From: Candidatus Sulfotelmatobacter sp.
GTDB lineage: Bacteria > Acidobacteriota > Terriglobia > Terriglobales > Acidobacteriaceae
NCBI GenBank assembly: GCA_017883385.1
Contig: JADGNQ010000040.1
Span: 1-39,003 of the forward strand
Direction: 5' to 3'
Length of the DNA stretch: 39,003 nucleotides
Below the pieces are notes generated by a model that saw only the letters and a list, made by a program, of their open reading frames with translations, did not search any database and was not told the origin of the DNA. How positions within the stretch are numbered: the stretch's first letter is position 1; every line of letters starts with the position of its first letter. Positions 4,049 through 27,399 of this stretch are shown piece by piece. Both the position numbers and the translations under genes were made by a program.

Positions 4049-4143
4049 TTCGAAGATGGCCAGTGTCTCAAACAACAGAACAGGCAGCCCCATGAAGAGT
4101 CCTGCTGAGGGGGGTGCCCAGAGATTCGACCAAGGAGCCAGAC

Positions 4144-5568
4144 ATGTCAGTGACTCAGAAGTTTGTACCTGTGGTTCGCAGATTCAGTCAGCTCGCGTTT
4201 ATTACGCTGGCTATCGGCCTAACACTTCTAGCGATTTCTTGTGGCGGCTCATCCAGTGCGATCGCCGGTCCAGGACCCGGCCCGACGCCCCAAACCGCAA
4301 CCCAGGTGAAGATCGGAGATGCCCCCGCGGATCGCGTTGTGTCCTTCGAAGTCACCGCCGGCCCCATCACCGTAACCCCAACCAGCGGCAGCGCTGTCAC
4401 CGTTTTGTCCGGGACGCGCCGACTTGAGCTCTCCCACTTGTCCGGCACCAACGAACCGTTGGCCCTGCTCAACGTGCCGCAAGGAAGCTACAGCAGCGCG
4501 TCCATCACGGTTTCCAACCCTGAGGTTACCTTCATCAATAACCTAGGCGTGCTGGTGAAACTGCAGCCGGCCTTCAACCAGGCGATCACGCTCAACTTCA
4601 GCCCGGCTCTTACGGTTGGAGCCAGCTCCATGGTTGTCGACATCGATTTGAACGTCGCCAATTCGCTGACGTTTGACGGGCAAGGAAACATCACCGGAGT
4701 CAATCTCACAGCCGCTTCATTCACTGTTGGAACGGCCGTTGTCGCCGCAGAGGACAAACAAGGCCACGACGATGGCGAACTCGAGGACACCACCGGAGTC
4801 ATCACGGTGGTGAACGGAACTTCATTCACCCTGACGGTCGATCAGACCGGCACACCTCTTACCTTCACCACCGACGCAAACACGCAGTTCAACGACGGTG
4901 CGACTTTGACTTTGAACACAATCGTAACGGTGGAAGGTGTCACCAAGTCGGATGGCACTCTCTACGCGAAGGAAGTGGAAGGAATCGAAGACTCGAATGG
5001 CGCGGAAGCCGAAGGACTGATTACACAAGTGACCGGAAATCCCGCCACCCAACTCACCTTTGTTGCTGACCATGGCATGGGAAGCGGCATGGACGACACT
5101 AAAGTGGGCGAGCCGATCACCGCAGACGTCAGCGGTGCCAAGTACAAAGTAAAGAAGGGCAACATCGACACCAGCGGGATCGGTGGCCTGCCTTCAGCCC
5201 CAACCTTCCCCTTCGATGCCGCAACCGTTCATGCAGGGCAGAGAATCGAAGTGGAAAGTGTCGCCGCGATGAGCGGAACCAGCATCACGGCGGACAAGGT
5301 CAAATTGCAGCAACAGGCGCTGGTGGGCACGGTGTCTGGGCTGCAGGGATCGACAACCGCGGGACCTGTGACCTTCACCCTAACCGTGGCCAACGACTCT
5401 GTGTTCGCGATGCTCTCTGGAACAACTCAGGTCACCGTGTACTGGCAACCGGGAACGGATCTACACAAACTGGCTAGCGTGAACAACGGCGATACGGTCA
5501 GAGTCCGCGGCCTGGTGTTCTTCACCGGCAGCAGCTTCAACATGATCGCTCGACGCATCGATCAGTAG
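4144..5568 (+). CDS. Lipoprotein with DUF4382-like and DUF5666-like domains
   Basis: 474 residues. The start at ATG 4144 is set by an AAGGAG site 7 bp upstream; an upstream GTG at 4114 in the same frame is less likely. The signal peptide ends in a lipobox (LAISC), so Cys33 would be lipidated, and the protein is anchored to a membrane from the outside. A Gly/Pro-rich linker follows. Then comes a DUF4382-like beta domain at about 45-190 (QVKIGDAPADRV, LNVPQGSYSSASITV) and repeated DUF5666-like beta units to the end (GLITQVTG, VEGVTKSDGTLYAKEVEGI). Such proteins are frequent in Acidobacteria and have no known function. The gene is divergent to the sigma operon and ends at a strong terminator, so it is its own transcription unit. 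Confidence 0.85.
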   Translation: MSVTQKFVPVVRRFSQLAFITLAIGLTLLAISCGGSSSAIAGPGPGPTPQTATQVKIGDAPADRVVSFEVTAGPITVTPTSGSAVTVLSGTRRLELSHLSGTNEPLALLNVPQGSYSSASITVSNPEVTFINNLGVLVKLQPAFNQAITLNFSPALTVGASSMVVDIDLNVANSLTFDGQGNITGVNLTAASFTVGTAVVAAEDKQGHDDGELEDTTGVITVVNGTSFTLTVDQTGTPLTFTTDANTQFNDGATLTLNTIVTVEGVTKSDGTLYAKEVEGIEDSNGAEAEGLITQVTGNPATQLTFVADHGMGSGMDDTKVGEPITADVSGAKYKVKKGNIDTSGIGGLPSAPTFPFDAATVHAGQRIEVESVAAMSGTSITADKVKLQQQALVGTVSGLQGSTTAGPVTFTLTVANDSVFAMLSGTTQVTVYWQPGTDLHKLASVNNGDTVRVRGLVFFTGSSFNMIARRIDQ

Positions 5569-5997: not shown

Positions 5998-6861
5998 ATG
6001 AAGAGTCCAGTCACCATGGTCACGGGAGTAGGCGGGCCGGCGGGCCATGCCGTTTCGCAATACTTCCAGCAGAATGGCATCGCGGTTCTGTGCGCCGACA
6101 TGCGCCACTTAGACGGCCTACAGAACTTCAGAATGCTTCCTCCCGCCTCCGACGATCAATTCGTGGAATCTCTCGACCAGCTCCTGGACGAGGCCGAGAT
6201 CGGGCTGCTTGTTCCCACCGTTACCGAGGAACTCCCGAAGGTTGCGGAGCACCGCGAACCGATCCGTCGCAAGAACTGCGCACTATTTGTCTCTCCGGCT
6301 CAGTCTGTGAGAGTCGCGAATGACAAGTGGGAAACCGCGCGTCTGCTCATGGAACACGGAGTGCCCGTTCCATTGTCCTACTGCGGCAATTCGAAGGCGG
6401 AGCTTCTGGATTCAATTCCGTTCCCCATGTTGTCGAAGCCCCGCTTCGGCAGGGGTGGAAGAGGGATCGCAATCCACGAAAGCGCCGATGACCTTCCGGA
6501 GTTCCTTTCGACGGACCGGGTCTATCAGGAATTTCTTCCGGCAGAAGAATACGACGTAAATCTCTTCGCCGAGCCGGGTGGGGCGACTCTCACATCAGTG
6601 GTCCTTAAGAAGACTGCGCTCAAAGATGGGCTCGTAGGAAATGCGCTGACTGTAGAGCGTGTTGACGAGCGGGAGGTGGCAGAGTTGGCGGCAGCGGCGG
6701 TCCGTGCCCTGTCCCTTGAAGGACCGATCGATGTAGACGTTCGACGCGGAGGTGACGGCCGCCCGTTCATTCTGGAGATCAATGCGCGCGTAGGCGCGAA
6801 TGTGCGGGCGGCCGAGGAGATTTTGATCGCGATGATAGCTAGCTGGAGGGCCCGGCAATGA
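5998..6861 (+). CDS. ATP-grasp family ligase
   Basis: 287 residues. ATP-grasp enzymes join a carboxylate to an amine, thiol or other nucleophile through an acyl-phosphate. The N-terminal ~110 residues form the pre-ATP-grasp Rossmann part (TGVGGPAGHAVSQYF). K147 in SKP and the Gly-rich loop RFGRGGRG bind ATP, and E260 and N262 in LEINAR are the metal ligands. All key residues are present, so an active enzyme is likely. It is closest in style to carbamoyl-phosphate-synthase-like and amino-acid ligase members; the substrate is unknown. Its stop overlaps the next start (ATGA at 6858), the first of a run of such overlaps, so it belongs to the polysaccharide operon. Known Pga-type loci carry no such enzyme. 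I infer that it may attach an amino or carboxylic acid to sugar amines freed by the PIG-L enzyme encoded two genes later. Confidence 0.87.
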   Translation: MKSPVTMVTGVGGPAGHAVSQYFQQNGIAVLCADMRHLDGLQNFRMLPPASDDQFVESLDQLLDEAEIGLLVPTVTEELPKVAEHREPIRRKNCALFVSPAQSVRVANDKWETARLLMEHGVPVPLSYCGNSKAELLDSIPFPMLSKPRFGRGGRGIAIHESADDLPEFLSTDRVYQEFLPAEEYDVNLFAEPGGATLTSVVLKKTALKDGLVGNALTVERVDEREVAELAAAAVRALSLEGPIDVDVRRGGDGRPFILEINARVGANVRAAEEILIAMIASWRARQ

Positions 6862-8144
6862 GAACGTGGAAATGGTTAGCGGTGATTATCTTTTGCGCGC
6901 TCCAATTGCGTGCGAGCGACGAACAGTCAGTCCAGCAAGCATCCCAGTTGCTCGAAGCTGGGAAAACAAGAGATGCGAAGGTCATCCTTCAGTCCATGCT
7001 GGAACGGGAGCCGCAAAATGCTGAAGCGCATGAACTGATGGGTGACGCATTTCGCCATGAAGGAAACGGCAAGGCGGCCGAGCGGGAATACCGTCGAGCT
7101 ATGGACTTGGGCATTCACGATTCCGGGCTGCTGAGCAACCTGGCAACGGTCCAGAAATGGAACCGTCACTTCTCCGAGGCCAGGACGTCATACCGGCGAG
7201 AGCTGGAAGTCGCTCCCTTCCAACAGGGGACGAGAGATGAGTTGCAGGACCTCGAGTATCAACGCGGGTTTTCTCTGTTTGGCGCCTATGGTGGCTGGGA
7301 AACGGATTCAACCACCAAAGGCTGGCAGGCCGATCTCTCCTATCGAGGTTTAGACCGCCTTGATACCTATGCCGGGCTCTCATACGCGGACAAGTTCTTC
7401 TACACGCGGCGATCGTACGACGCAAAGGCCTATGCGTTTTTCTCGCCGACGGGATACGTCAAGTTCAATTTCGAGCAGGACAACTACAACTATCCTGTCG
7501 CGATTACTCCGGTGCCTGACGCCAATGCGTACCAGCATGTCCCGACCGCGGGCATCGAAGTGTCGGGAGATCTGCGGCCCAACCTGCGAGGAACGATCTC
7601 GTATGAGTTCTTCCGGCCGAACTTCTTCTTCGATCCCAGTGAGCACGCCAGCAATCACAAGTTGGGGGGCGAGCTTTTATACAAGACCGGATGGAAGCCG
7701 CTCCAACTGCGGGTGCAGTCAGCCGTCCTTCGCGATCCCGATCCCAATCGCACACTCGTTGACAAGGTCAATCGGCACGTGGTGCCAGTGTATGGCATGC
7801 AGTACCTGGTGGGGGGAGGTGCTGATCTTTCATTTCCCAGATTTGACGCGCAGGTGCTGGTGCTGCCGAACCGCGATCTCGATCGGAGCACCGACTATTC
7901 CTTTCTCAGCGCGCTGAGCGTACCTCTCAATCGCACTCTCAAGCTCAAGAGCGGCTACATCTACGACCACTATTCGAACCAGAGCGCTTTTACCGGAAAG
8001 ACCGCGCAGGTCTACAACGTTGGTTTCTCGTGGAAGATGGCGAAGTGGATGGAACTTTCAGTCGGCGGAAAGGCAGTACGCCGTCCCATTCGAAATGATC
8101 AGGCGGTATATGTCACGACCAGTTTCAGGTTGCCACTGCGATGA
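6858..8144 (+). CDS. Outer-membrane beta-barrel with N-terminal TPRs (YaiO/PgaA-like)
   Basis: 428 residues. A signal peptide (about 1-19) is followed by roughly three TPR units at about 20-135 (ASQLLEAGKTRDAKVILQSM, AHELMGDAFRHEGNGKAAER). From about 145 on the sequence alternates in short aromatic strands typical of an outer-membrane barrel of the YaiO type, and it ends in a membrane-insertion-like TTSFRLPLR. TPR plus barrel is the architecture of PgaA, which exports poly-GlcNAc, although PgaA is about twice as long. The gene overlaps both neighbours by 4 bp. I infer that it is the export pore or its partner, with the TPRs in the periplasm binding polymer or the TPR part of the next protein. 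Confidence 0.82.
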   Translation: MRTWKWLAVIIFCALQLRASDEQSVQQASQLLEAGKTRDAKVILQSMLEREPQNAEAHELMGDAFRHEGNGKAAEREYRRAMDLGIHDSGLLSNLATVQKWNRHFSEARTSYRRELEVAPFQQGTRDELQDLEYQRGFSLFGAYGGWETDSTTKGWQADLSYRGLDRLDTYAGLSYADKFFYTRRSYDAKAYAFFSPTGYVKFNFEQDNYNYPVAITPVPDANAYQHVPTAGIEVSGDLRPNLRGTISYEFFRPNFFFDPSEHASNHKLGGELLYKTGWKPLQLRVQSAVLRDPDPNRTLVDKVNRHVVPVYGMQYLVGGGADLSFPRFDAQVLVLPNRDLDRSTDYSFLSALSVPLNRTLKLKSGYIYDHYSNQSAFTGKTAQVYNVGFSWKMAKWMELSVGGKAVRRPIRNDQAVYVTTSFRLPLR

Positions 8145-9931
8145 GAGCATCTATCCAAATTGCCGTTGGTATCATCTTCGCACTTGGCGCACTCTCGGTT
8201 AGCTCCGCGCGTAGCGCCACAGACTCGCGATTACCCACTGAATCTGAGCCAAAGACGCATGCCACGCACAAGGAGCTTGCCAAACGTTATGCCCTAAATG
8301 GTGCTCTGCCTGACGCCATTCGTGAGTACCAGGTAGCGCTCGCGGCTGACCCCAATGACGGAGATGCTCGTTTGCATCTTGCCGAAGTGTTTTCCTGGAC
8401 CGGTGACTACGATCGTTCCCTCGTCGCATACGAAGATGTCCTGAGGACTTCGCCATCGAATCTTGAGGCGCGGATTGGAATGGCCCGGGTCTTACGTTGG
8501 TCGCACCGCTACTCCGATTCAGAGCAACAGCTACAGTCGGTTTTGAAAGTGGACCCGGACAATCTTGACGCGATCAAAGGAATAGCGCAGACCTATGCGC
8601 TGGCCGGGGACTTTGGAAGGTCCTTGACCTTCCTCGATCGGGGTGTCTCTCGCTATCCCCATGACGCAGAGCTCGTGGCGCAAAAGGGAACCGTGCTTTC
8701 ATGGAGCGGGAACCTGCAGGAGGGGATCGCGTTCCTGAAAACTGCGGTGACTCTGGATCCTACGTCGGCCAGTACCTACCGCTCTCTGGCTGACGCCTAC
8801 ACGTGGAGGAAGGAGTTTTTGATCGCGGCCGAGAACTACCGCAAAGCCTTGGATATCGAACCAAAATCTGTCGAGACTGCTCTCGACCTTGCGCGGGCAT
8901 ACCAGAAGGCCGGAAAGAGGATCATGGCCGAGGAGGTTGTGACGCAGGTGCTACGCATCGCTCCAAGTCATCATCAGGCGATGGAACTTCTTCAAGAAAT
9001 CCGCAGAGGAGACAGACTCGACACGGCGAGAGCAATGGATGTGGTTGGCGAACCGGTCGCCTTTCTCGCGATCCTTTCACTTCCGACGGTGCTTTTTTAT
9101 AGAAGGCAACGACGCACTATCTGGAAGGCGCCCCAGCATAGGAAGCTCTACCGAGTCGTCTTTCCTGTGTTGTCCCTGCTGTTTCTGGTGGCTTATGGAT
9201 TGCGCATTGTTTTGGAAACAAGCGTCTACTACAAGATCCTGGAGATTGTTCTTCTGATTGCAATCGCGGTGTTCACGCTCCTTCTGTTTCGCGAGACGCG
9301 CCCCTCGGCAAAAGCTTCGGCGGCTGATTCGGTGCTCGTCATAGGCGCCCATCCGGACGATATCGAACTCGGGGCCGCAGGTTCTCTTTTGAAGCTTACT
9401 CAGGAAGGGGCAAAGGTCTACGGTCTCGTCCTGACGCAGGGAGAAATTGGCAGTGAAGCGCCCATTGGTACTAGGGCGGAAGAAGCGCGGCAGGGCGGCA
9501 GCCGCCTGGGACTCAGTGACTTATGGATCCTGAACTTCCCCGATACGCATTTGCGGCAGCACATCACCGAAATGAGAGCAGTCATCGAAGAAAAAATCAG
9601 AGAACTTGGAGTCCAGATCGTTATTACCCATAGCCCGCACGAAACCCATGGAGATCATGCGGCAGTCTTTGAGGCAGCCAAAGAGGCTGCTCGCAAATGC
9701 TCGCTGCTCTGCTATGAGAGCATCAGTGCGCCGAAGGAATTCGTGCCCAACTACTTTGTGGACATCACGCCGTATCTTCCCGACAAGCTCTTGGCCGTCA
9801 GCAGTCACAGGACACAACGCGGGAAGTTTTACATGGACCTGGAATTGGTGAAAGGGCGCGCTGCACATCGTGGACTTCAGGCAGGAGTACCCTATGCCGA
9901 GGCATTCTGGGTCTATCGGTGGGTGCGATGA
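8141..9931 (+). CDS. Periplasmic TPR scaffold fused through three membrane helices to a PIG-L deacetylase
   Basis: 596 residues with an unusual order. A signal peptide (about 1-27) is followed by six to seven TPR units at about 45-295, three membrane helices near 306-322, 340-358 and 366-384, and a PIG-L/LmbE domain at about 396-596. The zinc motif A403-HPDD-407 and the second motif THGDH (502-506) are intact, so the deacetylase should be active. With the N-terminus outside and three helices, the positive charges (FYRRQRR) put the PIG-L domain in the cytoplasm. PIG-L enzymes such as MshB and BshB remove acetyl groups from GlcNAc of small molecules. Here one would expect deacetylation of a precursor before or during polymer synthesis, unlike the periplasmic CE4 domain of PgaB. 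Overlaps of 4 bp on both sides show tight coupling. Confidence 0.88.
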   Translation: MRASIQIAVGIIFALGALSVSSARSATDSRLPTESEPKTHATHKELAKRYALNGALPDAIREYQVALAADPNDGDARLHLAEVFSWTGDYDRSLVAYEDVLRTSPSNLEARIGMARVLRWSHRYSDSEQQLQSVLKVDPDNLDAIKGIAQTYALAGDFGRSLTFLDRGVSRYPHDAELVAQKGTVLSWSGNLQEGIAFLKTAVTLDPTSASTYRSLADAYTWRKEFLIAAENYRKALDIEPKSVETALDLARAYQKAGKRIMAEEVVTQVLRIAPSHHQAMELLQEIRRGDRLDTARAMDVVGEPVAFLAILSLPTVLFYRRQRRTIWKAPQHRKLYRVVFPVLSLLFLVAYGLRIVLETSVYYKILEIVLLIAIAVFTLLLFRETRPSAKASAADSVLVIGAHPDDIELGAAGSLLKLTQEGAKVYGLVLTQGEIGSEAPIGTRAEEARQGGSRLGLSDLWILNFPDTHLRQHITEMRAVIEEKIRELGVQIVITHSPHETHGDHAAVFEAAKEAARKCSLLCYESISAPKEFVPNYFVDITPYLPDKLLAVSSHRTQRGKFYMDLELVKGRAAHRGLQAGVPYAEAFWVYRWVR

Positions 9932-12354
9932 GCTTTCCCTTGGGCCTCATTGGCCAGTCGGTTCTCGTAGCCTTTGGCCTCGCCACTCTACTGGTTAGCA
10001 TCCAACTGATTGTTTTCTTCCCTCTAACCATTGCTTACGAGATCTGGAAGCAGCGTGCACTCCGGCGCCTCGCGGTAAAGCCGTTTGAAGGACGGGTGTC
10101 GGTTGTTGTTCCTGCCTACAACGAAGAAAAAACGCTGAGAGCCTGTATCGAGTCACTACTTGCGTCCCGTTACCCTGACCTGGAAGTGATTGTGGTCAAT
10201 GATGGCTCAACCGATGGGACCGAGGACTCCATTGACGGATTGGTCGACGGAGAAAGAGTTCGTTATTTTGATCAGCCCAACGGCGGAAAGGCGACCGCAC
10301 TAAACCGGGGAGCGCAGGCCGCTACTGGCGAGGTGATCCTGTACACCGATGCGGATAGCCTATTCCTGCCCGATACTGTTGGACAGATGGTCCGCTGGTT
10401 TGCAGATCCTACGGTCCACGCTGTTTGCGGCAATGACACCCCTCTGACGGCGCGAACTCCGCTGCAAAAAGTTCTCGCGGTGACGAGCCACATTGGAACC
10501 GGGTTCGTTCGCCGCGCCCTTTCCCTGTTGAATGTATTGCCGATCATTTCCGGAAACCTTGGAGCGGTCCGCGTCGATACATTTCGAGAGATTGGTGGGT
10601 TCCAGCAGGTTTGGGGGGAAGATCTCGAGTTCACCTTTCGGCTGCAAGCGTTCGGGAAGCGAATTGTTTTTGATCCGGATCCGGTCGTGCGCGCTGAGTG
10701 TCCCGCGGGCCTGCGTCCCCTCTGGCGCCAGAGGATTCGCTGGGTGCGAAGTTATCTCAAGGTCTCGGCCATGCACTCCGATCTTTTTCGTCCCACGAGA
10801 GCCTTTCCGTTCTCGCTGTATCTGCCCTTTAACTACTTTGCCCAGACCGTTGTGCCACTTCTGCAGATCGTTTCTCTTCCTCTCCTCTTTCGGCTCGCAT
10901 TCGCCGGGGCCAATGCGCTGGATTGGGTGTGGACGCTGATTCTCTATTTTGGATTACTCACCTTCCTGACCGTGGCGCTGTACAGCGTCTTGCTCGACCG
11001 CGACCTCAAGACGCTGAAATACATTCCTATTGCGGCTCTGCTCATCATTCCACTGTCGTATTTCTATAGTTTTGTAGTTCTGTCTTCCGTATGGCAGGAG
11101 TTGTTGCGGAAGGCGGAGCGGTGGGAAAAAATTGAGCGCCTGCCTGTAGGGGCAACGGGTCGCCGAGGCGGAGCGAGTCTGGTACTCATGGGCGTCTTGC
11201 TGGTTGGCGTCGTTGGGGCGGTCCGAATTTCGCATGACGGTACGTCGGGGCCCGCTCCCTTGCCTCAGCCCCCAGTTCCTCGCAGGCCGGTGAGTGAAGC
11301 GATGTTGGCGAATGATGGTCGCGTTCGTGACATCGCGGTGGCAACCCACTTTGATGGTTGGCAGGACTGGCGCAATGCAATAACGTCAGTTCTCCAGAAC
11401 CCAGTGGCCCCTCGACTTCACACCGTGGGCATCTCAGCGGGACGGGTTGAGTGGGCGCACTTCCAATGGCAAGGACATCAAACGCAATGGTCCCCTCTGC
11501 AAAAGAGAACATCGGTTGACATGTTGGGAGAAGCGACCCGAGACTTCAAGAAGCATGGCTTTCGCACCGTGGCGATGGTCGATTTCTACTCGCCCGACCT
11601 GGTGACGCGATTTCCTCAGAAGTCAGCAATTCGATTTGACGGTGCACGCAGCACCGACCAGGTGTGTTTCAGCGAACTGGTCGATGGAGACTATGGGCGG
11701 CAGATTATCGAGATGGTGTCGTATCTCTCGCACAACTATCCTCTGGACGCCATTGCGCTGACCGAGCTTGGTTACTATTCCTTCTGCTTTGACGACAGAT
11801 GCCTTCGTTCCTATCACGACGCAACCGGGCAAGCTTCGTGGCCCAGAAGACGCTTCGGAAGCGGCGTTGACCGTGATGACCCTTCCATATGGGAATGGCG
11901 GTCGGCGCGGATGGGAGTGTTCCTTCAGAGGGTCGCGGATGCAGCCCACTCCGGCGGCAAGCAACTCATCGTGGATGTGCCTGTGAGTTGGAAAGACCTC
12001 CAGAGACACGGGAAGGATTCCGGTCTGGACTATGCGAGAGTCCTGCACAGTGCCGACCAGATCGTGGTGTGGAACTATTTTGGCGTGCAACAAAAGGATC
12101 CCGAGATTTCGCAGGACATCGCCCAGGATCTGCTGCAGAGTTTTCCTCCCGATAAGTTTTTCATCTCTGTGGGTCTATGGCGCTCGCACGGCACCCTCGA
12201 TCCGCAAGCATTCCAGAAGGGCTTGGCGTATACCATCAAGGGTGGAGCTCCGAATATTTGGATTACTCCAAATGAGTTGATGTCGCGCTCGCATTGGGCA
12301 GCAGTAGACGCGGCGCTTGGACAATCGGATGCCACCACGCGAACCCACAACTGA
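9928..12354 (+). CDS. Processive GT2 polysaccharide synthase fused to a glycoside-hydrolase-like domain
   Basis: 808 residues; ATG 9928 overlaps the previous stop (ATGA). The N-terminal membrane helix or helices (about 8-35) precede a GT2 catalytic domain at about 55-290: VVNDGSTDG, D141-A-D143, GED232 and Q268-RIRW-272. These are the D, DxD, ED and QxxRW motifs of processive synthases such as PgaC/IcaA. Membrane helices follow at about 300-400 and at 416-433. Residues about 465-790 form a TIM-barrel-like domain reminiscent of glycoside hydrolases; E613 in ALTELGYY is a candidate acid. The topology puts it in the periplasm. In the Pga system the hydrolase domain is on PgaB, not on the synthase, so this is a fusion of two normally separate steps. 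The fold of the C-terminal domain is my reading and needs a structure search. Confidence 0.87.
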   Translation: MSFPLGLIGQSVLVAFGLATLLVSIQLIVFFPLTIAYEIWKQRALRRLAVKPFEGRVSVVVPAYNEEKTLRACIESLLASRYPDLEVIVVNDGSTDGTEDSIDGLVDGERVRYFDQPNGGKATALNRGAQAATGEVILYTDADSLFLPDTVGQMVRWFADPTVHAVCGNDTPLTARTPLQKVLAVTSHIGTGFVRRALSLLNVLPIISGNLGAVRVDTFREIGGFQQVWGEDLEFTFRLQAFGKRIVFDPDPVVRAECPAGLRPLWRQRIRWVRSYLKVSAMHSDLFRPTRAFPFSLYLPFNYFAQTVVPLLQIVSLPLLFRLAFAGANALDWVWTLILYFGLLTFLTVALYSVLLDRDLKTLKYIPIAALLIIPLSYFYSFVVLSSVWQELLRKAERWEKIERLPVGATGRRGGASLVLMGVLLVGVVGAVRISHDGTSGPAPLPQPPVPRRPVSEAMLANDGRVRDIAVATHFDGWQDWRNAITSVLQNPVAPRLHTVGISAGRVEWAHFQWQGHQTQWSPLQKRTSVDMLGEATRDFKKHGFRTVAMVDFYSPDLVTRFPQKSAIRFDGARSTDQVCFSELVDGDYGRQIIEMVSYLSHNYPLDAIALTELGYYSFCFDDRCLRSYHDATGQASWPRRRFGSGVDRDDPSIWEWRSARMGVFLQRVADAAHSGGKQLIVDVPVSWKDLQRHGKDSGLDYARVLHSADQIVVWNYFGVQQKDPEISQDIAQDLLQSFPPDKFFISVGLWRSHGTLDPQAFQKGLAYTIKGGAPNIWITPNELMSRSHWAAVDAALGQSDATTRTHN

Positions 12355-13027
12355 GAAACTGCTCGTCGCCATCAGTGGGAACGCGAAACACTACGCAGAG
12401 TGGGTCCTCCGCGCTGGTGGGACGTACCAATTGATGGTTCCAGGGGCGAACGGCCCGTTCGATGCGGTCTCGGGTCTGCTACTGACGGGCGGAGAGGATG
12501 TCCATCCCGCCCTCTATGGCGAGGTCAACCGGTGCTCCAGGGTCAATCCGGAGCGAGACAAATTTGAACTCGAGCTATTACATGCGGCGCTCAGTCGCGA
12601 CCTGCCCGTTCTCGCCGTCTGCCGTGGAATGCAACTTCTGAACGTGGCACTTGGAGGGAGTCTCTATCAAGATCTCGGGGAAATGGTGTGTGACCCAAGC
12701 GCGGGAAAGAGTGTCTGCCATCGCGGCCCGCAGCACACTGATACCACCCATCCCGTTCACCTGGAGCCACAGACCTTTCTCAGCAGGTGCGTAGGTCAAC
12801 ACACTCTGCTGGTCAACAGTCACCACCATCAGGGTGTTCGAGAACTTCCCGCGGACTTGCATTCCTCCGGACGCTCAGAAGACGGGCTGATCGAAGCAGT
12901 CGAACACGCCACCAAAACTTGCGTCCTGGGTGTCCAGTGGCATCCAGAGCGATGGTCAGACAAATCCTCCGACTCGATCATGAAGCAGTATCTCGCCGCC
13001 TGTGAGAGCTATCGCTCCTGGCACTGA
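12329..13027 (+). CDS. Class-I glutamine amidotransferase-like hydrolase (peptidase C26, PuuD-like)
   Basis: 232 residues from ATG 12329, overlapping the synthase gene by 26 bp; a TTG at 12317 is an alternative start. The catalytic triad is visible: C98 in AVCRGMQLLNVALGG, and H205 and E207 in GVQWHPE. The early LLLTGGEDVHPALY block is typical of gamma-glutamyl-gamma-aminobutyrate hydrolases and other peptidase C26 members, which cut gamma-glutamyl amide bonds. As the last gene of a polysaccharide operon it is unexpected. Together with the ATP-grasp ligase at the other end it suggests that amide-linked groups are added and removed, possibly on the polymer, its precursor or a donor. That link is inference. 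Confidence 0.85.
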   Translation: MPPREPTTEKLLVAISGNAKHYAEWVLRAGGTYQLMVPGANGPFDAVSGLLLTGGEDVHPALYGEVNRCSRVNPERDKFELELLHAALSRDLPVLAVCRGMQLLNVALGGSLYQDLGEMVCDPSAGKSVCHRGPQHTDTTHPVHLEPQTFLSRCVGQHTLLVNSHHHQGVRELPADLHSSGRSEDGLIEAVEHATKTCVLGVQWHPERWSDKSSDSIMKQYLAACESYRSWH

Positions 13028-13133
13028 TCCAAAATTAGGGACGACCTGAGTGATCGCTGCATCTTGTCAGGGTTTCACGAAGGTGGACGAATCGAACACC
13101 GAATAACTTGGAGCACAAAGCGGAGCACAATAA

Positions 13134-13928
13134 CTGCCGAATGAGAGCCTGGGTCTTGATCCGGGCATGGGTGTCCTGCACGTAGACACACCGGCCCGCG
13201 ACAGCTTGGCGTGCGACCTTATGGAAGTAGTTCGTCCTCAGGTTGACGCTTACCTGTTGGACTGGATTACGCGGCAGTTCCTCAATCGCGAATGGTTTTT
13301 CGAGCAGCATGACGGCAATTGCCGTCTGATGGCACCGTTCACGGTCGAACTGAGTAAGACCGCACCGATCTGGGGTCGCGCCGTCGCGCCGATTGCAGAG
13401 TGGGTTGCTCGTGCTTTTTGGTCGACCATCCGCAAGCCCGATGCTCCATTCGCCACAAGGCTGACCCAGGGGAACAAGCGGCAAGCGAAAGCAGCTCCGT
13501 CCTCACATGCCCCAAATGCGCCAGGTCCGCAGACGCTCTGTCGTGGTTGCGGGAAGAATATCGCCGTTGGAAGAATTAACTGCGCCCAATGCTCAATCGA
13601 AGGGGCCACAGAACGGATCGTTGATGCTGCTCGTCTGGGACGGTTGGCGGCGCAAACCCCTGCAGCACTGACCAAACAGGCCGATTCTCAGCGTCGGCAC
13701 GCGAATGCACGTTCGGCATGGGACGAATCCTGTCAACCAGCGTGGCTTTCCAGCGAGTTGTTCTCGCGGAAAATTCAACCGAAACTGTCGGACGTTGCGA
13801 CATCTGCCATTCGATCGAGCATGGGCGTATCCCGATGGTATGCGAGCCGGATTCGCCAGGGGTACCGACCTCATCCTAGGCATTGGGGAGTGCTGGCTCG
13901 TCTGGCTGGAGTCTCGGCGAAAGGTTGA
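13134..13928 (+). pseudogene. cas1: N-terminally truncated solo Cas1 with C-terminal zinc ribbon and HTH
   Basis: The frame opens after a TAA at 13131; ATG 13167 gives 253 residues. It begins in the middle of Cas1's catalytic domain (LGLDPGMGVLH, then RDSLACDLMEVVRPQVDAYLL). His5 and Asp17, counted from the ATG, match two of the three metal ligands. The N-terminal domain and the third ligand (Glu, normally about 60 residues earlier) are missing, and the upstream DNA is the end of another gene. After the Cas1 core come a four-cysteine zinc ribbon (CRGC, then CAQC, within about residues 124-140) and an HTH-like tail (SSMGVSRWYASRIRQG, then LARLAGVS). I recall this tail from stand-alone Cas1 proteins of soil bacteria. 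No cas2 or CRISPR array is nearby. Probably a dead relic of a mobile or defence element. Confidence 0.72.
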
Positions 13929-14400
13929 CGAGTTAAATGGGGAGTGGCTTTCGTCATTCTGCGAATCGAATCCTTCACAGCTTTCAGCATGTCAGTTCCT
14001 CCTGCCAGTTCCACGGAGTATCGGATGAAACAGACTGAAGCCACAGCAGGTCCGTCGTCTTTATCGGTGGGCCACAAAGCAAAACAGCGTCATGTATCGT
14101 TGTCCCCTTTGTGATCAACGAACGGCCACAGACAATCCTGCGGCCACTGGAACGTAGCCTTTGGTCCGACGGTTAGAAGTTCAGACTTCCTCGGTTCGTT
14201 AGGGTCCTTGTCTGGATCGGGCGAGGGATCGATAAATGGAACTTTGTTTTTCATTCCAGCTATGCTGCTTCTGCTTTCCGCATGGCGTACATGTAGCGGT
14301 TCATCGCCTGTGTCAACTGCGTTTCCCCCTCCGCTCGTCCGCAATGGTCATGACATTGGGTGAAAGCAAACTAATGCCTCGAAGGCTGAGATTCCTCGTC
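13929..14400. other. Gene-free stretch between the Cas1 relic and the histidine kinase
   Basis: 472 bp. Only short open frames without ribosome-binding sites are present, for example a minus-strand frame with a Met at 14254 giving 54 residues. I see no RNA gene or convincing terminator. It may be decayed DNA belonging to the Cas1 relic. Confidence 0.4.
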
Positions 14401-16128
14401 TCATGAGGCACGAGTTTTCTTTTTTTGGTTGTACGATGCTGAAATCGGCTTGCTGAAGAGTTCTCGAATTTTCACCGCTAGCTCTCGGAGAAAAAACGGT
14501 TTTCCCAGGAAAGCATCGTTCGTATCGAGAACGTCCTGCTCAAGGGTCTGGTCATCAAAGCCCGACACATAGAGAACCTGGATGTTGGGGTAAAGAGGTC
14601 GCAACTGCTGTGCTAACGCTCGACCGTTGATACCTGGCATCACCACGTCCGTTAACAGCAAGTCAATTTTTCCGGTGAATTGCTGCGCAATCTGAATGGC
14701 CTCTCCCGGAAGACCTGCAACCAGCACCTTATATCCCAGCCCCTGCAAAAATCTATGAGTGAGATGACGCAGTTCGCTCTGGTCCTCTACCAGAAAGATG
14801 GTTTCCGAGCCCCGCAGAGATTCGTCGGGGACTCTCGACGCGGCGGCCTGCTCTATGATTTCCTCCTTCGCCCTCGGTAGATAAATCCTGAATGTCGTAC
14901 CCTCGCCCCGCTCGCTGTTTAACAAAATGCTCCCACCGCTCTCCTTCACGATTCCATAAACTATAGACAAACCCAGGCCCGTACCTTTTCCGATGTCTTT
15001 CGTCGTGAAGAACGGATCGAAGGCACGGCTCTGGATCTCTGGCGACATCCCCGCCCCCGTGTCACTCACCGTTAGCGTAACGTAGTGACCCGGAGCAACG
15101 TCAGCCGGTTCGCCGCCACCCTGTTTCATTTCCCAATTGGCGACCTCGATAGTCAGCTTGCCTCCTTCGGGCATGGCGTCACGAGCGTTTGCCGCCAGGT
15201 TCATCAGAACCTGCTGGACTTGGGTAGGATCGGCCAGAACCGGGGCTTGCTCTCCCGAGAGAACAATACCCATCTCAATGTGTTCTCCAATCATTCGAGG
15301 GAGCATGCGGCCAGTTTCCCTCACTATCGAATTGAGATCAAAGACGAGTGTCGAAGATACCTGCTTGCGACAGAAGGTCAGGAGTTGTTTTGTCAAACTT
15401 ACAGCCCGCTGAGATGCGGTGATGATAGCCTCGACATATCGTCTTCGTGGGTCGATGGCGCGAAGATCTCCCAGCAAGAGTTCCGAACTTCCCAAAATTA
15501 CGCCCAAAAGGTTGTTGAAGTCGTGGGCCACTCCACCAGCCAGGCGTCCGACGGCTTCCAGTTTGCTTGCCTGTTGTAATTGCTCTTCCGATTTGCGGAG
15601 CGCCTCCTCGGCGTGTTTGCGCCGGGTGATGTCGCGGATGTTGCACTGGATAACTCTGGTGCCGCCCACTGTATAAACATTACTGACAAACTCTACCGCA
15701 ATTCGGCGACCGTCCTTGGTTTCAAGGGGCAAATCGTCGTAACGGATAATGCCATTGTCTTGTAAATCAGCGAAACTTGAACGGCTGGGGGAAATGTCCT
15801 TGACGGGACCGATTTCCCAGAGATCCTTCCCCACTAACTCGGCACGCGAATATCCCAACAGGTTGGTCAAGAACGGGTTCACATCCACAATTTGCCCGCT
15901 GGCAAAATCGAGGATCAATATGCCGTCTTGGGCAGCTTCAAACAGCCGCCGATAACGAATTTCGGAAGCTTGCAACGCTCCCTCGGATCGATTACGCCCC
16001 TTAATATCGCGAATGGCACCGGAAACCAGCATACCCTCCTGCTCCTTCACAGGGCCCAGCGTGATCCTCACCGGGATTTCGCGCCCATCCTTGTGCCCCA
16101 GCTTGTGCTCAACCACGACTGGCCCCAC
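14401..16128 (-). CDS. Hybrid sensor histidine kinase (PAS-HisKA-HATPase-REC), 5' end uncertain
   Basis: 575 residues from GTG 16128. Residues 1-45 look like the tail of a PAS domain ([17 protein letters not shown]); a full PAS domain follows at about 55-168. H202 in GGVAHDFNN is the phospho-acceptor. N310/N314 and DTGAG (356-360) belong to the ATPase domain. A receiver domain at about 442-560 carries the acceptor D494 ([10 protein letters not shown]). Two codons before the GTG is an in-frame TAG, so the protein either begins inside a PAS domain or has lost its N-terminus to a mutation. There is no membrane helix, so it is a soluble sensor in this form. No dedicated response regulator gene is adjacent; the GAF-REC protein further right has a similar receiver. 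Confidence 0.88.
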
Positions 16129-16540
16129 ATGCTATCGTCTGCCTGCTGCACATCGGGGAAAAATCGAGATCCTGGTGCGGTTGCGCTCGCCTAGAATCAC
16201 AAGACGAGTAGGGAACGATGCCAGAAGAGTGTGTTAAAGCGTTATGTTTGGGTTGATTTCCGATCCAGTCCTTGACTGAGCCCGCGACAAACACAAGACT
16301 AGCGCCAAATACGTCTCTTCTGGTGAGCCCAGTCACGGAGCCGTGCATCAATGATCGCAGGTTCGTTAGGGAGACATAAACATAAACGCAGTAATCCCCG
16401 CAGATTGAGAGCAGTCGGATAGCGTTGCTGGACCTGTCTCTGTATATTGCACCTGTTTGTAAGTACATTCTTAGGTCGTCGGTCTGACTTGACGCTAATA
16501 CCATTTTCTACCTCCCCTCTTAAAGTGTTTCTGCAGGCGC
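16129..16540. other. Gene-free stretch between histidine kinase and Crp-family gene
   Basis: 412 bp. No supported gene; a minus-strand frame (16109-16504) has no family features. It could contain the decayed 5' part of the kinase, since the kinase starts within a PAS domain, but I could not recover a clean PAS reading in any frame. Confidence 0.35.
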
Positions 16541-22394: not shown

Positions 22395-22577
22395 GTGGCC
22401 AACGCTCAATCCAAAGAAGTAAACCTCACTCGCTTGCCGCTGCCTCAAAAACTAAGGACTCCCAGCAGTCGGTGTTCTTCGAGCCTTCGCATCAGCGGCC
22501 TTAGTGTTTGGTTCCCACCATTTCGCCCGACCTTCCTCGGCGCGCTCGCAGTGGCGACGTGGGCTCCCTACCAGTAA
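22395..22577 (+). pseudogene. Possible integrase N-terminal stub next to the tRNA fragment
   Basis: A GTG at 22395 has a good GGAGG site (22383-22387, 7-bp spacing). The frame starts ANAQSKEVNLTR, which resembles the opening of tyrosine recombinases of Acidobacteria as I remember them. After about 15 residues the likeness stops, and the frame ends at 60 residues inside the 3' end of the receptor gene on the other strand. A recombinase reading away from a tRNA 3' end is the normal arrangement at an att site, which is the main reason to suggest this. Low certainty. Confidence 0.25.
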
Positions 22578-25500
22578 AGCTTTAGCGCCATCTGCACCTC
22601 GCGTGGACCATTGCACTGGTAATAAATCTTGCCGAAGGTGGGACTGCCAAACGTCGTGTCGGGACCACAGAACTGTGGATGATTGAAGGTGTTGAAGGTC
22701 TCGAACCGGTATTCAAGACGCATCCCTTCACGAACCGTGCCCAAGCCGAACTCCTTAAAGATGGACAGGTCGGCGTTGTCGGCACCCGGATTGCGAACGG
22801 TACCCAAGGCGCGAGGTGCAGTGCCGATCGCATACTGCGCCGGCTGTGCGAGGAAATCGCTCCCGTCTGCGCTGGTGAAGTATTGATTGGTCCAGTCCGA
22901 GTCCTTCCCTCCGGCACGGTGAGGCGTGCCGATCAGGTTCGGGCGCTGCGGCCCATAGGTTGGCAGACTTTGAGATATATAAAGCATCGGGTTGATGGGC
23001 CTGCCGCTGTTGAAGCGCCAGATGCCGTTGGTGCGCCATCCGCCCACGATGGCATTGAGCACAGGGTGCAGATTGCCTCCGATGAATTTCCCTCTACCGA
23101 TAGGAAGTTCGTAGGTATAACTCAGCTGCAGGACTTGAGGAATGTCGAATGAAGAGAGACTTCGTTCACCGGCCGGATTGTTCGGATTCTGCAGGCTGGC
23201 AAAACTCCCCAAATAGCCGCTGTTGGTGCTAGTCAGCGACGCATCGTCGATTGACTTGGAGAACGTGTATGTCGCGAGAAATTCTAAACCGTGCGAAAAG
23301 CGCTTCTCTGCTCGAAACTGCAGCGCGTGATAGATCGAGTTGGCGATGGGTGGCTCGTCCCCGGAAAATCCAAAGAACTGCGGATAGGGCATCAGCAGCT
23401 GCATTTTCTGGATCTGAGAATAGAGCAGCGGATCATTGGGATCGGTGATGATCTGTGACGCGTTGGACTGGTTGGGATCCGCGAATGGATTGTCGACAAA
23501 GGACGCTAGGTCTGCCAACTGCGCGTTGGTGTAGTGCTCGACCTCGGGTCCCAGGTGATTGATGCTGCCGGCATTGGCGAAATAGAGGTGCGTTCCTTTC
23601 TTGCCGATGTAGGAGGCGTCGAGTACCAGGTTCCCACGCGTCTCGTGCTGGACGCCGAAGCTCCAGCTCTGTTCGTAGGGCACTTTGTTGCTGATATAAC
23701 GAATGGGGCCGTATCCACCATAGCCCACGTCGTTCAACAGGCCCAGGCTGCTGCCCGGAGGCTTGATTGGACCATTGGGATATGGATTGCTCATTCTCGC
23801 AGCAGGAGTCGCTCCGTCCCCCTGAAATGAGGTCACCAGATAGGACAACTGATCGAAGCCCTGCTGCCCAACGCCTGAGGTCCCGGCGACCGCGCCTCGC
23901 CAGGCGGAGTAGTAGATGCCGTATCCGCCGCGAACGACAGTATTGCGGAGCGCGCGGTAGGCAAAGCCGAAGCGTGGCTGAATGTTCTTGAAGTCGGCTG
24001 CATAGGAATGCCGGTCGCTGGAACTGGCGAACCTCTCGCCGCCCTTGAGGTGCTGGCCATTGAGAGTGATAGGAGATACTGCATTCGGATCGAGCCAGTT
24101 CAGCTCGTTGCGCCTCTCAGTGCGCGGCAAAACCAGCTCGTAACGCAGGCCGAGATTAAGAGTCAGCTTGTCGTTCATTTTCCAGTTGTCCTGCACGAAT
24201 CCACCGAACTCGAAGTTCTGACTGGCGACCGAGTTGGGAATCTCGTACATGCCCCACGAGTTCGGTTGTACGCCGATCAGGAAGCTCGCCATCCCATCGC
24301 CGCCCAGTGGGTCACAGTTCACATCAGGCGGATTTGGGATACACGCGGGATCGTAGTTCGAAGTGCCGGTCTGGTCGAAGCTGTAGTATCCGCCAGGGGC
24401 GTAGTTCGGCTGGGTGAAGTTGAGGCGATGAAGCCGTCCTTCTGCGCCGAGCTTGATCTCGTGCATGCCCTTCACCCAATTCAGAGTGCCGATGAGGTGA
24501 TGCGTCTCTTGCCCCTGCTTCGCGTAACTATAGAGTTCCGTGCCTATGTTGTTGTAGGGCCCGGCGGAGCCGTAGCCACCGCCAATGCCAACTGCCGGGA
24601 ACCAGTCGTAACCGGAAGATTTCATGTATGCTGGCTCGCCCAGCAGGTCCACAGCGGAGGTTCCCTTGGGAAAGGTTCCGGCATTGCTGGGATAGAAATA
24701 CGTGCCGCGCGACACGCCGTAGGAAATGTTCAGCAGTAGGGTGGGACTGAACATGTGGTTGTCATTCAGCGCAAACATGTGAGCGGTGCCGGTTACCGGT
24801 CCACTCGAGCACGGATCGGCGAAGTTGTTGAAGCAGTTGAAAGGCGACGAATTGCTGGCCTGTTGCGAGTACTTTGCGCTGAGCAGGTTCTTTACGCTGA
24901 AGCGGTGATCGATCTTCAGGTCCCACTGATTGTTGCTGCTCTTGGTAGAGCCTGAGTCAACACGATTGAAGAAAGGACTGTAGTTCGAACTGCCGACATT
25001 CAAGTTCGGCTCGGGGAAGTACTGCATGAGTTTGAAAGCCACGGGGTCGATCAGGTTACCCGGCCCCGACGGAAGACGATAGGGAGCAGCACCAGGATCG
25101 CCGGCTAGCACCTGGTTGCCGGGATGGTTCGCATCCACCGTGCTGGTGTAGGTTGAGAGATTGTTGTATGGGACGGGCGCCAAGCGTCTCGCTCCGCCCA
25201 CGGCCGGATCGTAGGTCCCGGAGTAGGGGTCCCAGAGTTGGCCGGCCTGGCTGGAGCAGACTCCCTGGGCATCGAATGTTCCCCCGTTGTTTCCGCAGAC
25301 CTCGCCAAAGTCACCTACCCGTTCGGCGTCGCTTGGTACCCCGTAAAAAACGGGTCCGGCGGCCGAGGTCAGACGCATGCCCTCGTAGTCGAAGAAAAAG
25401 AAAGTCTTGTTCTTGATGATCGGCCCCCCGATGGTGCCGCCAAAATTGTTGCGGCGCAATGCGGGAATGGGGATTCCCTGCTGGTTGTTGAAATAGCTAT

Positions 25501-26353
25501 TCGCGTCCATCTTGTAGTGGCGCAGAAATTCATACCCGCTGCCATGAAATTTGTTGGCGCCCGAGCGCGTGACGAGATTGATGATGGTGGCGCCGCTGAA
25601 GCCGAATTCAGCGCTGAAATTCGATTCCTGGACCTTGAACTCCTCGACGGCATCTACCGAAGGCGTATAGGTATCCACGCGAATGCCGCTATTCTGCTCA
25701 TAGTTCGTGGTCGTGACCCCGTCCATGAGGATGTCGGCCGTCGCATTCCGGCTACCATTCGAGATGAAGTTGTTGGCGGAGCAACCCATGCACGCCGCGT
25801 CTACTTCCGTGACGCCGGGAGCGAGGAACGCCAGATTGAAGACGCCTCTTCCATTCAGCGGGAGGTCGTTAATGAACTTACGGTCTACAACCTGACCGCT
25901 GACCGCGTCTTGGGTGCCGAGCAATGGAGCTGACGTCGACACAGTGACGGTCTCGAGTGTGCCCAAAACCGTCATCGCGAAATCCACACCCACATTCTGG
26001 CTGACGTCCACTCTAATCCCGGTTCGGTTTTGTTCTTTGAAACCGGCCGCCTTGACCGAGATGTTATATGTGCCGGGCGCTACTGAACGAAAGAGGTAAC
26101 GTCCGTTCGTGTCCGTCTTGGAGGTGAAGGTGAAGCCCTTTTCTGCATCCACTAACGTCACGTTCGCCTCGGAGATCACGCCGGCCGTCTGGTCGGCGAC
26201 TACGCCGGTAACAGATCCGGCATAAAGTTGCGCTTGCACAGGAACTGGCGACTGGAAGACCAGAAAGGCCAGAGATATGACGGCAACCATGCGCAGAATC
26301 AGTGTTCTTCGGGTGCCCTGGGATGCGACGCTGGATAAAGTGGATTCGGTCAT
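22568..26353 (-). CDS. TonB-dependent receptor with N-terminal carboxypeptidase-regulatory-like domain
   Basis: 1,261 residues from ATG 26353, which has an AAGGAG site. A signal peptide ends near VQAQ. Residues about 45-130 form a CarboxypepD_reg/CnaB-like beta domain (SVTGVVADQTAGVISEANVT, GRYLFRSVAPGTYNISVKAAG). A plug domain follows (FINDLPLNGRGVFNLAFLAPG), then a long barrel rich in aromatic strands that ends in ALKLYW. This receptor type is greatly expanded in Acidobacteria and is thought to bring large substrates, often glycans, across the outer membrane with energy from TonB-ExbBD. No SusD-like partner is next to it. It is the last gene of the glycan operon, 71 bp after the preceding gene. 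Confidence 0.93.
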   Translation of the reverse strand: MTESTLSSVASQGTRRTLILRMVAVISLAFLVFQSPVPVQAQLYAGSVTGVVADQTAGVISEANVTLVDAEKGFTFTSKTDTNGRYLFRSVAPGTYNISVKAAGFKEQNRTGIRVDVSQNVGVDFAMTVLGTLETVTVSTSAPLLGTQDAVSGQVVDRKFINDLPLNGRGVFNLAFLAPGVTEVDAACMGCSANNFISNGSRNATADILMDGVTTTNYEQNSGIRVDTYTPSVDAVEEFKVQESNFSAEFGFSGATIINLVTRSGANKFHGSGYEFLRHYKMDANSYFNNQQGIPIPALRRNNFGGTIGGPIIKNKTFFFFDYEGMRLTSAAGPVFYGVPSDAERVGDFGEVCGNNGGTFDAQGVCSSQAGQLWDPYSGTYDPAVGGARRLAPVPYNNLSTYTSTVDANHPGNQVLAGDPGAAPYRLPSGPGNLIDPVAFKLMQYFPEPNLNVGSSNYSPFFNRVDSGSTKSSNNQWDLKIDHRFSVKNLLSAKYSQQASNSSPFNCFNNFADPCSSGPVTGTAHMFALNDNHMFSPTLLLNISYGVSRGTYFYPSNAGTFPKGTSAVDLLGEPAYMKSSGYDWFPAVGIGGGYGSAGPYNNIGTELYSYAKQGQETHHLIGTLNWVKGMHEIKLGAEGRLHRLNFTQPNYAPGGYYSFDQTGTSNYDPACIPNPPDVNCDPLGGDGMASFLIGVQPNSWGMYEIPNSVASQNFEFGGFVQDNWKMNDKLTLNLGLRYELVLPRTERRNELNWLDPNAVSPITLNGQHLKGGERFASSSDRHSYAADFKNIQPRFGFAYRALRNTVVRGGYGIYYSAWRGAVAGTSGVGQQGFDQLSYLVTSFQGDGATPAARMSNPYPNGPIKPPGSSLGLLNDVGYGGYGPIRYISNKVPYEQSWSFGVQHETRGNLVLDASYIGKKGTHLYFANAGSINHLGPEVEHYTNAQLADLASFVDNPFADPNQSNASQIITDPNDPLLYSQIQKMQLLMPYPQFFGFSGDEPPIANSIYHALQFRAEKRFSHGLEFLATYTFSKSIDDASLTSTNSGYLGSFASLQNPNNPAGERSLSSFDIPQVLQLSYTYELPIGRGKFIGGNLHPVLNAIVGGWRTNGIWRFNSGRPINPMLYISQSLPTYGPQRPNLIGTPHRAGGKDSDWTNQYFTSADGSDFLAQPAQYAIGTAPRALGTVRNPGADNADLSIFKEFGLGTVREGMRLEYRFETFNTFNHPQFCGPDTTFGSPTFGKIYYQCNGPREVQMALKLYW

Positions 26354-26424
26354 AGTAGTCTCCTTGATCTCTAAATCTCTGTTTCGGCTGCGCCGGTCAT
26401 GCACCTTCCGCGGCGCGAGCTTCC

Positions 26425-27399
26425 TTAGGGCAACGGCGCTTCGACTTCCTCAAGCACCCAATGATCGGGCGACTCCAAATGGCAGTCATAGCCATAAAAT
26501 CGATCGTTAAAAATGTGCTGGAACAGGCAGGCGCGCTGACCGCGCATAATGGGGTTGCCTTCCACGGGCTGGAAATCGCCATCGGGCGAGTCCGCTGCGA
26601 AAATCTTTACCTGCCATTCACCTTCGGGGTCGTCGGTGTAGCGGTGCGGATAGATCTCAGTGGCGAGATAGTAAGTCCCGGTCTTCTTTTCCCCGACGCC
26701 GACCGCGTCTTTGACATACATCAACGTGGGAGCCGCAATTGTCGTTTCGGACTTGAGCAGCAGTTTTTCGGGAGCCTTGTCGAGGTCAACGACGGAATCG
26801 GCGCTCTTGCTGATGATCTCGAAATGATCCTTATCATTGCCGCGATAGAAAGTGAGGTAGAAACGCCCCGTGCGTGGATCGCGGAACAGGTTCGGATTCT
26901 GGTTGCGCTGGTTGGGAACACCTGCCACCAGAATCTTCACCTCGGTGAGATGAAGTCCATCGTTGGAACTGGCCAGCACGATGTGGCTGCTCGGGGTGTC
27001 GTATTCTCGAGTAATCGCGAAATAGAGCAGGTCTTTGTCCTTCGCGTCGGCTCCTGCGAGTACCGACGGCCAGCGCGCATTCGTCCACAGTGGATTCTGG
27101 TCATACTTGGTCCACGTCACGAGATCGTTGCTGCGGGCTAAGCCGATACCGCGGCCTTCGTTCAACCCGTACCATCCCCAGTAGCGGAATCCTCCGCGAT
27201 TCCGTTCCAGTACCGACATGGTGTGGGGGAACTCGTCGCCTTCCCACTTTTGCGCGTCGGGAAGCACGTGGCGAGGTGTTGTGAGTTTGAGGTAGGGAAC
27301 AGCTTTGGGGTGCTCCTGCGAAAAACCTGTGACTCCAATGGCGAGCACGACAAGCGTCAGTGCAATAAGGGCCCGAACCTTATGAATAGCGTTGAACAT
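26425..27399 (-). CDS. Secreted GH43/GH117-like five-bladed propeller protein
   Basis: 324 residues; ATG 27399 with an AGGAG site. A signal peptide (about 1-28, ending at VTGFSQ) shows export. The body has the repeated blade pattern of glycosidases of the GH43/GH32/GH117 group: GIGLARSNDLVTWTKYDQNP, then IVLASSNDGLHLTEVKIL, NPNLFRDPRTGRFYLTFYRG, and KIFAADSPDGDFQPVEG. Such enzymes trim glycan side chains or oligosaccharides in the periplasm or outside the cell. I could not fix the catalytic acids with certainty, so activity is inferred from fold and context. 33 bp separate it from the previous operon gene. Confidence 0.75.
   Translation of the reverse strand: MFNAIHKVRALIALTLVVLAIGVTGFSQEHPKAVPYLKLTTPRHVLPDAQKWEGDEFPHTMSVLERNRGGFRYWGWYGLNEGRGIGLARSNDLVTWTKYDQNPLWTNARWPSVLAGADAKDKDLLYFAITREYDTPSSHIVLASSNDGLHLTEVKILVAGVPNQRNQNPNLFRDPRTGRFYLTFYRGNDKDHFEIISKSADSVVDLDKAPEKLLLKSETTIAAPTLMYVKDAVGVGEKKTGTYYLATEIYPHRYTDDPEGEWQVKIFAADSPDGDFQPVEGNPIMRGQRACLFQHIFNDRFYGYDCHLESPDHWVLEEVEAPLP

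Follow-up and report, generated by a model that had tools for sequence, protein, structure and literature searches.

The 39,003 nucleotides from Candidatus Sulfotelmatobacter sp. analysed here (contig JADGNQ010000040.1, positions 1 to 39,003; hereafter the window) contain an operon that very probably encodes a synthase-dependent exopolysaccharide system, made of the kind of parts known from poly-N-acetylglucosamine (PNAG) production but newly arranged. All five open reading frames (ORFs) of the operon lie on the + strand at the expected positions and, as the initial annotation of this DNA had claimed, their products match ATP-grasp_3, tetratricopeptide repeat (TPR), PIG-L, Glycos_transf_2 and Peptidase_C26 families of Pfam above the cut-offs. 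The features are as follows.

5998..6861, + strand: ATP-grasp ligase, core gene 1, 287 residues (Pfam ATP-grasp_3)
6858..8144, + strand: probable outer-membrane TPR/barrel protein, core gene 2, 428 residues, the proposed export porin (TPR_19 and an AF2 model)
8141..9931, + strand: inner-membrane protein with TPRs, three transmembrane (TM) segments and a PIG-L domain, core gene 3 (Pfam TPR_19 and PIG-L)
9928..12354, + strand: family 2 glycosyltransferase (GT2) synthase with a C-terminal hydrolase-like barrel, core gene 4, 808 residues (Pfam Glycos_transf_2)
11299..12351, + strand: C-terminal part of the synthase, a GH153/GHL10-like, glycosidase-like TIM barrel (predicted fold)
12329..13027, + strand: class-I glutamine amidotransferase / peptidase C26, PuuD-like, accessory (Pfam Peptidase_C26)

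The genes had been described as joined throughout by ATGA overlaps. Three junctions are of this kind (at 6858, 8141 and 9928), but the fourth, into the C26 gene, is an overlap of 26 or 38 bases, depending on the start codon. The synthase could start at ATG 9928 or at an alternative GTG at 9919, and C26 at ATG 12329 or an alternative TTG at 12317. The two ATG codons are the likely starts, as they are favoured by the database copies P0001 (808 residues, beginning MSFPLG) and P0108 (232 residues).

The four core genes occur in the same order and on one strand in all seven complete loci, which come from Acidobacteriota and Deltaproteobacteria (the window, L010, L011, L013, L014, L015 and L019); in L011 separate ORFs encode the TPR and PIG-L parts. 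A fused synthase is present in ten loci, three of which (L012, L016 and L038) end at contig edges, and L038 keeps the order for its three visible genes. Locus L017, with 29% identity over 134 residues of the GT2 part only, was left out of all counts. Alignments A2 and A3 contained 7 and 8 sequences; L038 was added later and L016 is a fragment. Because the four-gene order is kept in distant genomes, a chance arrangement can be set aside, and the operon is genuine, rare and conserved. The initial expectation that all five families would co-occur in order therefore holds for the four core genes but not for C26, which is not a core part: none of the six further complete loci has a homologue of it adjoining the operon.

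The C26 protein matches Peptidase_C26 at 5.1e-53 and also GATase class I, and its closest solved structures are Lin1909 and PuuD-type proteins. Eight relatives besides the window have a close C26 homologue on a contig agreeing in size and source with that of a synthase, one of these contigs being 2429 bases long. C26 homologues lie elsewhere in five of eight genomes (E 0.001, best 1.3e-25), none adjoining the operon. The contig agreement is indirect evidence. C26 seems to be an accessory gene of a single branch. These matches bear on the idea of a CarA/CarB-like pair, in which C26 would give ammonia and the ATP-grasp enzyme would amidate carboxyl groups such as those of uronic acids, to leave primary amides on the polymer. 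The ATP-grasp protein does resemble carbamoyl-phosphate synthase large subunits, both genes are in the window and C26 is on the contigs of some relatives. Such a pair is nevertheless very unlikely: the six other complete loci lack C26 beside the operon, C26 is closer to PuuD-type gamma-glutamyl hydrolases than to amidotransferase subunits, and the pair would leave PIG-L without a role.

The spread of the operon is patchy. At E 1e-90 the synthase was found in 2 of 396 Acidobacteriota genomes, and the ATP-grasp protein at E 1e-40 in the identical two; within its own family the synthase was found in 1 of 348 genomes. Its C-terminal domain was present in 1 of 61 genomes and absent from the 60 other relatives, 36 of them of the same genus. 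Among 48 genomes of the order to which the deltaproteobacterial G456 belongs, 6 had the fused synthase, while an even draw of the phylum of G456 gave 1 of 345, G456 itself only. In the synthase surveys of 396, 348 and 345 genomes, the strict threshold was applied to the two best first-look candidates of each genome, and the genome samples of the synthase, ATP-grasp and domain surveys overlap. Among the matches listed in the protein database, 107 proteins, the window's included, have the fused domain; their named sources include Deltaproteobacteria, Thermodesulfobacteriota, Nitrospiria, Thermoanaerobaculia and Bacteroidota, and at least two of those listed (P0020 and P0025) have no GT2 catalytic part.

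Contig size and source were compared for 60 of the 107 synthase rows, 52 of the 120 C26 rows (one row with no contig was excluded) and 16 of the 120 ATP-grasp rows. For the ATP-grasp protein and the synthase they agreed in eight further cases; as the 16 rows were picked by hand, this is not a rate. A pairing of P0041 with P0152 on a 2704-base contig was dropped, as the sources differ and the two genes are too large for that contig. Patchy spread and co-occurrence fit horizontal transfer of the whole unit. Composition, compared with the operon's own contig only, shows no sign of transfer: GC content is 0.567 in the operon and 0.562 in the remaining window, and the operon's tetranucleotide distance of 0.137 is within the 0.120-0.188 range of other windows. 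This comparison bears on the operon within its contig and not on the contig's place in the metagenome-assembled genome, whose contamination is 2.86%.

Two database proteins have unusual layouts. P0025 (740 residues, longest contig 105906 bases) has the N-terminal part of an ATP-grasp protein in frame with the TM and hydrolase parts of a synthase, as if the intervening genes had been deleted. The join is inside both genes, so a deletion and an assembly join are equally likely, and we did not use this apparent natural fusion as evidence. P0020 (452 residues), on a contig of 702550 bases, has the hydrolase domain but not the catalytic part of the GT2.

The synthase has a QxxRW motif and matches Glycos_transf_2 at 3.5e-36. 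Its best NCBIfam model is PgaC_IcaA (7.2e-41, below the cut-off) and it is 30% identical to E. coli PgaC over 277 residues, so the early description of it as PgaC-like was sound. Against TIGR03937, the PgaC/IcaA equivalog model, it scores 140.5 bits where the cut-off is 422.3; judged by sequence, it is a homologue of PgaC/IcaA and not an equivalog. The segment before its last TM holds at least three lysines or arginines in 107 of 107 rows (median 7 before, against 2 after), and the C-terminal barrel is probably periplasmic.

The predicted fold of this barrel is that of the PgaB-type TIM barrel (GH153), with PgaB as the best VIA match and with the highest Foldseek TM-scores. This agrees with the proposal of a PgaB-hydrolase-like fold fused to the synthase. 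The label of a glycoside-hydrolase-like domain fares less evenly: the domain in the window protein matches 0 Pfam families, but its homologues and its predicted fold support the label. GHL10 (PF02638) was found in 11 of the 39 members of alignment A1, at best 1.7e-5, and GHL6 in 1 of 39. The alignment took 38 of the 106 other fused proteins, chosen by hand across the ranking; a separate run took all 107. Sequence similarity to the C-terminal part of PgaB gave nothing usable, either in a profile search of PDB sequences, with chance-level matches only, or in hhalign with E. coli PgaB, and GHL13 was found 0 times in the window's own genome, with a positive E. coli control. The candidate catalytic residue is Glu613 (808-residue numbering), directly after strand beta4, where the family has Thr-Glu.

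Cwp19 was nearly tied with PgaB as the VIA fold match, and is a lytic transglycosylase (PMC6016235). The fused domain might then be a GHL10-type enzyme lysing glycan strands, with the GT2 making a wall-associated glycan or glycolipid, and GHL10 is indeed the glycosidase family that the aligned homologues match most often. Yet the operon also holds a PgaC-like synthase and its TPR/barrel partner. The domain also differs from the GHL10/Cwp19 lytic domain in being fused to a synthase and in having Thr-Glu after beta4, whereas Cwp19 has Asp195-Asp196 near beta4 (PMC5765458), the equivalence being by strand order only. A peptidoglycan-related role is thus improbable.

The same genome encodes a second synthase with fused processing domains, a Glyco_hydro_18 / Polysacc_deac_1 / GT2 fusion at locus L002 (contig C265). 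Such GH18-CE4-GT2 fusions share with the operon synthase the joining of synthase and processing domains on one chain, but in them Glyco_hydro_18 and Polysacc_deac_1 precede the GT2, and the two GT2s are 31% identical.

The product of core gene 2 has a TPR_19 match and about three TPRs. Its AF2 model, from a seven-sequence alignment, has seven helices and then about 16 strands, with a mean pLDDT of 65.9 and a poor barrel part. For comparison, the PgaA and BcsC porins are described as 16-stranded, and BcsC and PelB are each predicted to have 19 TPRs (PMC9384988). Foldseek placed BcsC (9b8a) at rank 9 and PelB (9h80) at rank 37, with query TM-scores of about 0.3 and an rmsd of about 15 Å; these weak matches recall exporters in which a TPR scaffold is followed by an outer-membrane barrel. 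OmpG was likewise among the Foldseek matches, which are mostly to the TPRs. TPR matches (residues 13-139) also filled the VIA list, leaving the barrel outside the comparison, and the hhalign profile match to PgaA covers the TPRs only, with nothing useful for the barrel. A C-terminal phenylalanine is present in four of seven sequences; the window protein is without it. The synthase and the TPR protein are in one conserved operon, with the barrel suggested by a low-confidence model. The suggestion of a PgaA-like protein survives to the extent that the model is compatible with an exporter of the PgaA/BcsC/PelB type; for the barrel itself the model is weak.

Core gene 3 encodes an N-terminal hydrophobic signal or anchor, a TPR array (about seven or eight repeats by length), three TM segments and a PIG-L domain, in that order. 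TPR_19 matches at 1.8e-28 and PIG-L (PF02585) at 3.8e-26, with 92.5 bits for the latter against a cut-off of 28.2. The HPDD and HxDH motifs, which we take to be catalytic, are invariant in seven of seven sequences. The TM segments were assigned by hydropathy only. In all seven sequences the TM1-TM2 loop has 7-8 lysines or arginines and no acidic residue, the TM2-TM3 loop 0-1 basic and 1-4 acidic residues, and the segment after TM3 2-4 basic and 0-2 acidic residues. Loops rich in lysine and arginine face the cytoplasm under the positive-inside rule, and this pattern over three TM segments in 7/7 sequences places the PIG-L domain in the predicted cytoplasmic position, with the TPR array predicted to be periplasmic. 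The view of PIG-L as a simple replacement of a periplasmic CE4 deacetylase is therefore not supported. A cytoplasmic PIG-L domain would act on the precursor and not on the exported chain, as perhaps would the ATP-grasp enzyme in forming an amide.

The closest solved relatives of the PIG-L domain include diacetylchitobiose deacetylase and the GlcNAc-malate deacetylase BshB1, and BshB1 is also the best NCBIfam model for the whole protein (7.7e-26, below the cut-off). Bacillithiol and mycothiol synthesis use a PIG-L deacetylase to free an amine and a ligase to acylate it with an amino acid. The pairing of PIG-L with an amide ligase recalls these pathways and is the reason for the amide step that we propose; by this analogy, the ATP-grasp enzyme may form an amide. 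The BshB1 match and the order of deacetylase and ligase in bacillithiol synthesis would also suit a PIG-L/ATP-grasp pair that makes a bacillithiol-like cytoplasmic metabolite, or a lipid-linked primer for chain initiation only. We regard this as improbable too, as the three TM segments tie PIG-L to the predicted periplasmic TPR array and so point to a role in an export complex.

No TM segment was found in the ATP-grasp protein, which is therefore probably soluble. It matches ATP-grasp_3 at 7.9e-19 and NF009402 of NCBIfam at 6e-37, below the cut-off, and is nearest to the PRK12767 carbamoyl-phosphate-synthase-like ATP-grasp proteins. K147, the GRGGRG loop, E260 and N262, presumably the ATP- and metal-binding and catalytic residues, are invariant in 15 of 15 aligned sequences (those of the seven loci and eight of 120 listed proteins). 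The family match and the conserved residues together identify an ATP-grasp ligase. This enzyme bears most directly on whether the product is ordinary, partly deacetylated poly-GlcNAc, with PIG-L a plain deacetylase in either compartment and the ATP-grasp enzyme aiding substrate supply. The PgaC-like GT2, the PgaB-like hydrolase fold and the relation of PIG-L to GlcNAc deacetylases all favour such a product. Ordinary PNAG, however, has no need of an ATP-grasp enzyme, and this one, with its catalytic residues intact, accompanies the synthase in 7/7 complete loci and shares with it the two positive genomes among the 396. A cytoplasmic PIG-L domain, moreover, cannot reach a translocated polymer. 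Ordinary poly-GlcNAc is therefore an unlikely product.

The operon resembles PgaABCD in its PgaC-like GT2, its PgaB-hydrolase-like barrel fold, its TPRs with a probable outer-membrane barrel, its N-deacetylase and its single operon. It differs in that the hydrolase is fused to the synthase, the TPRs are split over two proteins and an ATP-grasp enzyme is added, so the initial view that the functions are re-partitioned over different proteins was correct. The deacetylase is PIG-L, predicted to be cytoplasmic, instead of CE4, and outside the GT2 there is almost no sequence similarity. Pfam detected a CE4 domain in none of the five operon proteins, and a search of the window's own genome for PgaD (PF13994) gave 0 matches, with a positive E. 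coli control. As PgaB is described as periplasmic (PMC5933820), the predicted cytoplasmic placement of PIG-L is the main departure from it.

Rearranged PNAG operons as such are already known, since Bundalovic-Torma et al. (2020, PMC7112194) report other GT fusions, namely pgaB clades with N-terminal GT fusions in Gram-negatives. Like the synthase here, these combine GT and PNAG-processing domains on one chain. In contrast to it, as that paper describes them, they fuse the GT to the CE4 deacetylase and are without the hydrolase domain, pgaA and pgaD; its main text has 0 occurrences of PIG-L and ATP-grasp. The claim that no system with this gene set has been described stands, though weakly, as far as the literature matches listed go: none was found among them, and none for PIG-L, ATP-grasp and polysaccharide together, with most subscription journals outside the search. 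We read the operon as a synthase-dependent exopolysaccharide system whose architecture is new.

Our explanation is that the operon makes and exports a hexosamine polymer. The GT2 would polymerise an activated hexosamine, most likely UDP-GlcNAc given its QxxRW motif and similarity to PgaC/IcaA, and move the chain through the inner membrane. The periplasmic barrel, tethered to the synthase and PgaB-hydrolase-like in its predicted fold, would trim or guide the emerging chain, and the periplasmic TPR arms of the PIG-L and barrel proteins would lead it to the porin. The cytoplasmic PIG-L, so placed by the predicted topology of seven sequences in seven, would strip N-acetyl groups from the precursor before or at polymerisation, unlike PgaB, which acts on exported polymer. 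The product would be a poly-hexosamine. We put the probability of a synthase-dependent hexosamine exopolysaccharide with this mechanism at roughly 0.55. As a further step, less likely than not, the ATP-grasp enzyme may couple the freed amine to a carboxylate such as that of an amino acid, to give N-acylated or aminoacylated hexosamine units. C26, where present, might, speculatively, reverse or edit a gamma-glutamyl-type amide or supply ammonia. The most specific form of the idea is a biofilm polymer built from N-aminoacyl or N-acyl hexosamines, units that membrane-tethered PIG-L and the ATP-grasp ligase would remodel in the cytoplasm before polymerisation, while the export scaffold would bear the deacetylase on the opposite side of the membrane; this is rather doubtful.

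Several other readings of the locus were rejected. PADLOC found 0 defence families for the five operon proteins, Rfam gave 0 matches in the window at the gathering threshold, and no stretch in viral_contigs matched six synthase patterns, which speaks against a defence system, an RNA element and a phage origin. The search for promoter-like sites found 0 against 3.0 expected in shuffles, and that for terminator-like sites 9 against 7.1 expected; these counts are uninformative.

The surroundings of the operon vary. Directly downstream (13167-13928, +) is an ORF that we take for a truncated Cas1 remnant: its first 54 residues align with the C-terminal region of the family (Pfam Cas_Cas1 7.2e-9, profile 216-269 of 283). 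No repeat array of minimum length 20 was found in 12500-16500, which has two weak direct-repeat pairs of 27 and 21 nt, 70 and 76% identical. A DUF5666 ORF (4114-5568, +) with an N-terminus that is lipobox-like by eye lies 429 bases upstream of the operon and has no homologue in the other loci compared. A CHAT-domain protein is at the window start (2-1183, +). At 22568-35782 on the - strand, scanned to 29710, a large CarboxypepD_reg/OMP_b-brl_4 outer-membrane protein comes first, then a GH43-like match and an MFS transporter, possibly a carbohydrate-use locus. In L011 the operon is followed (12497-15822) by genes for an HlyD-type membrane-fusion protein, an ABC ATPase and an ABC-2 permease, identified by Pfam, and BLAST found homologues of them after the operon in the deltaproteobacterial loci L012, L013, L014 and L015; these genes could be a linked exporter. 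L019 has Fe-S redox genes there instead, and downstream neighbours vary by locus.

If our explanation is right, PNAG-type machinery can be rebuilt by handing its processing steps to different proteins and moving them to the opposite side of the membrane, and aminosugar polymers can gain new amide groups before export. The operon would be a natural contrast for the role of a PgaB-type hydrolase domain when tethered to its synthase. It would also add a new polymer chemistry and a new enzyme pair, PIG-L with ATP-grasp, in environmental bacteria known mainly from metagenomes.

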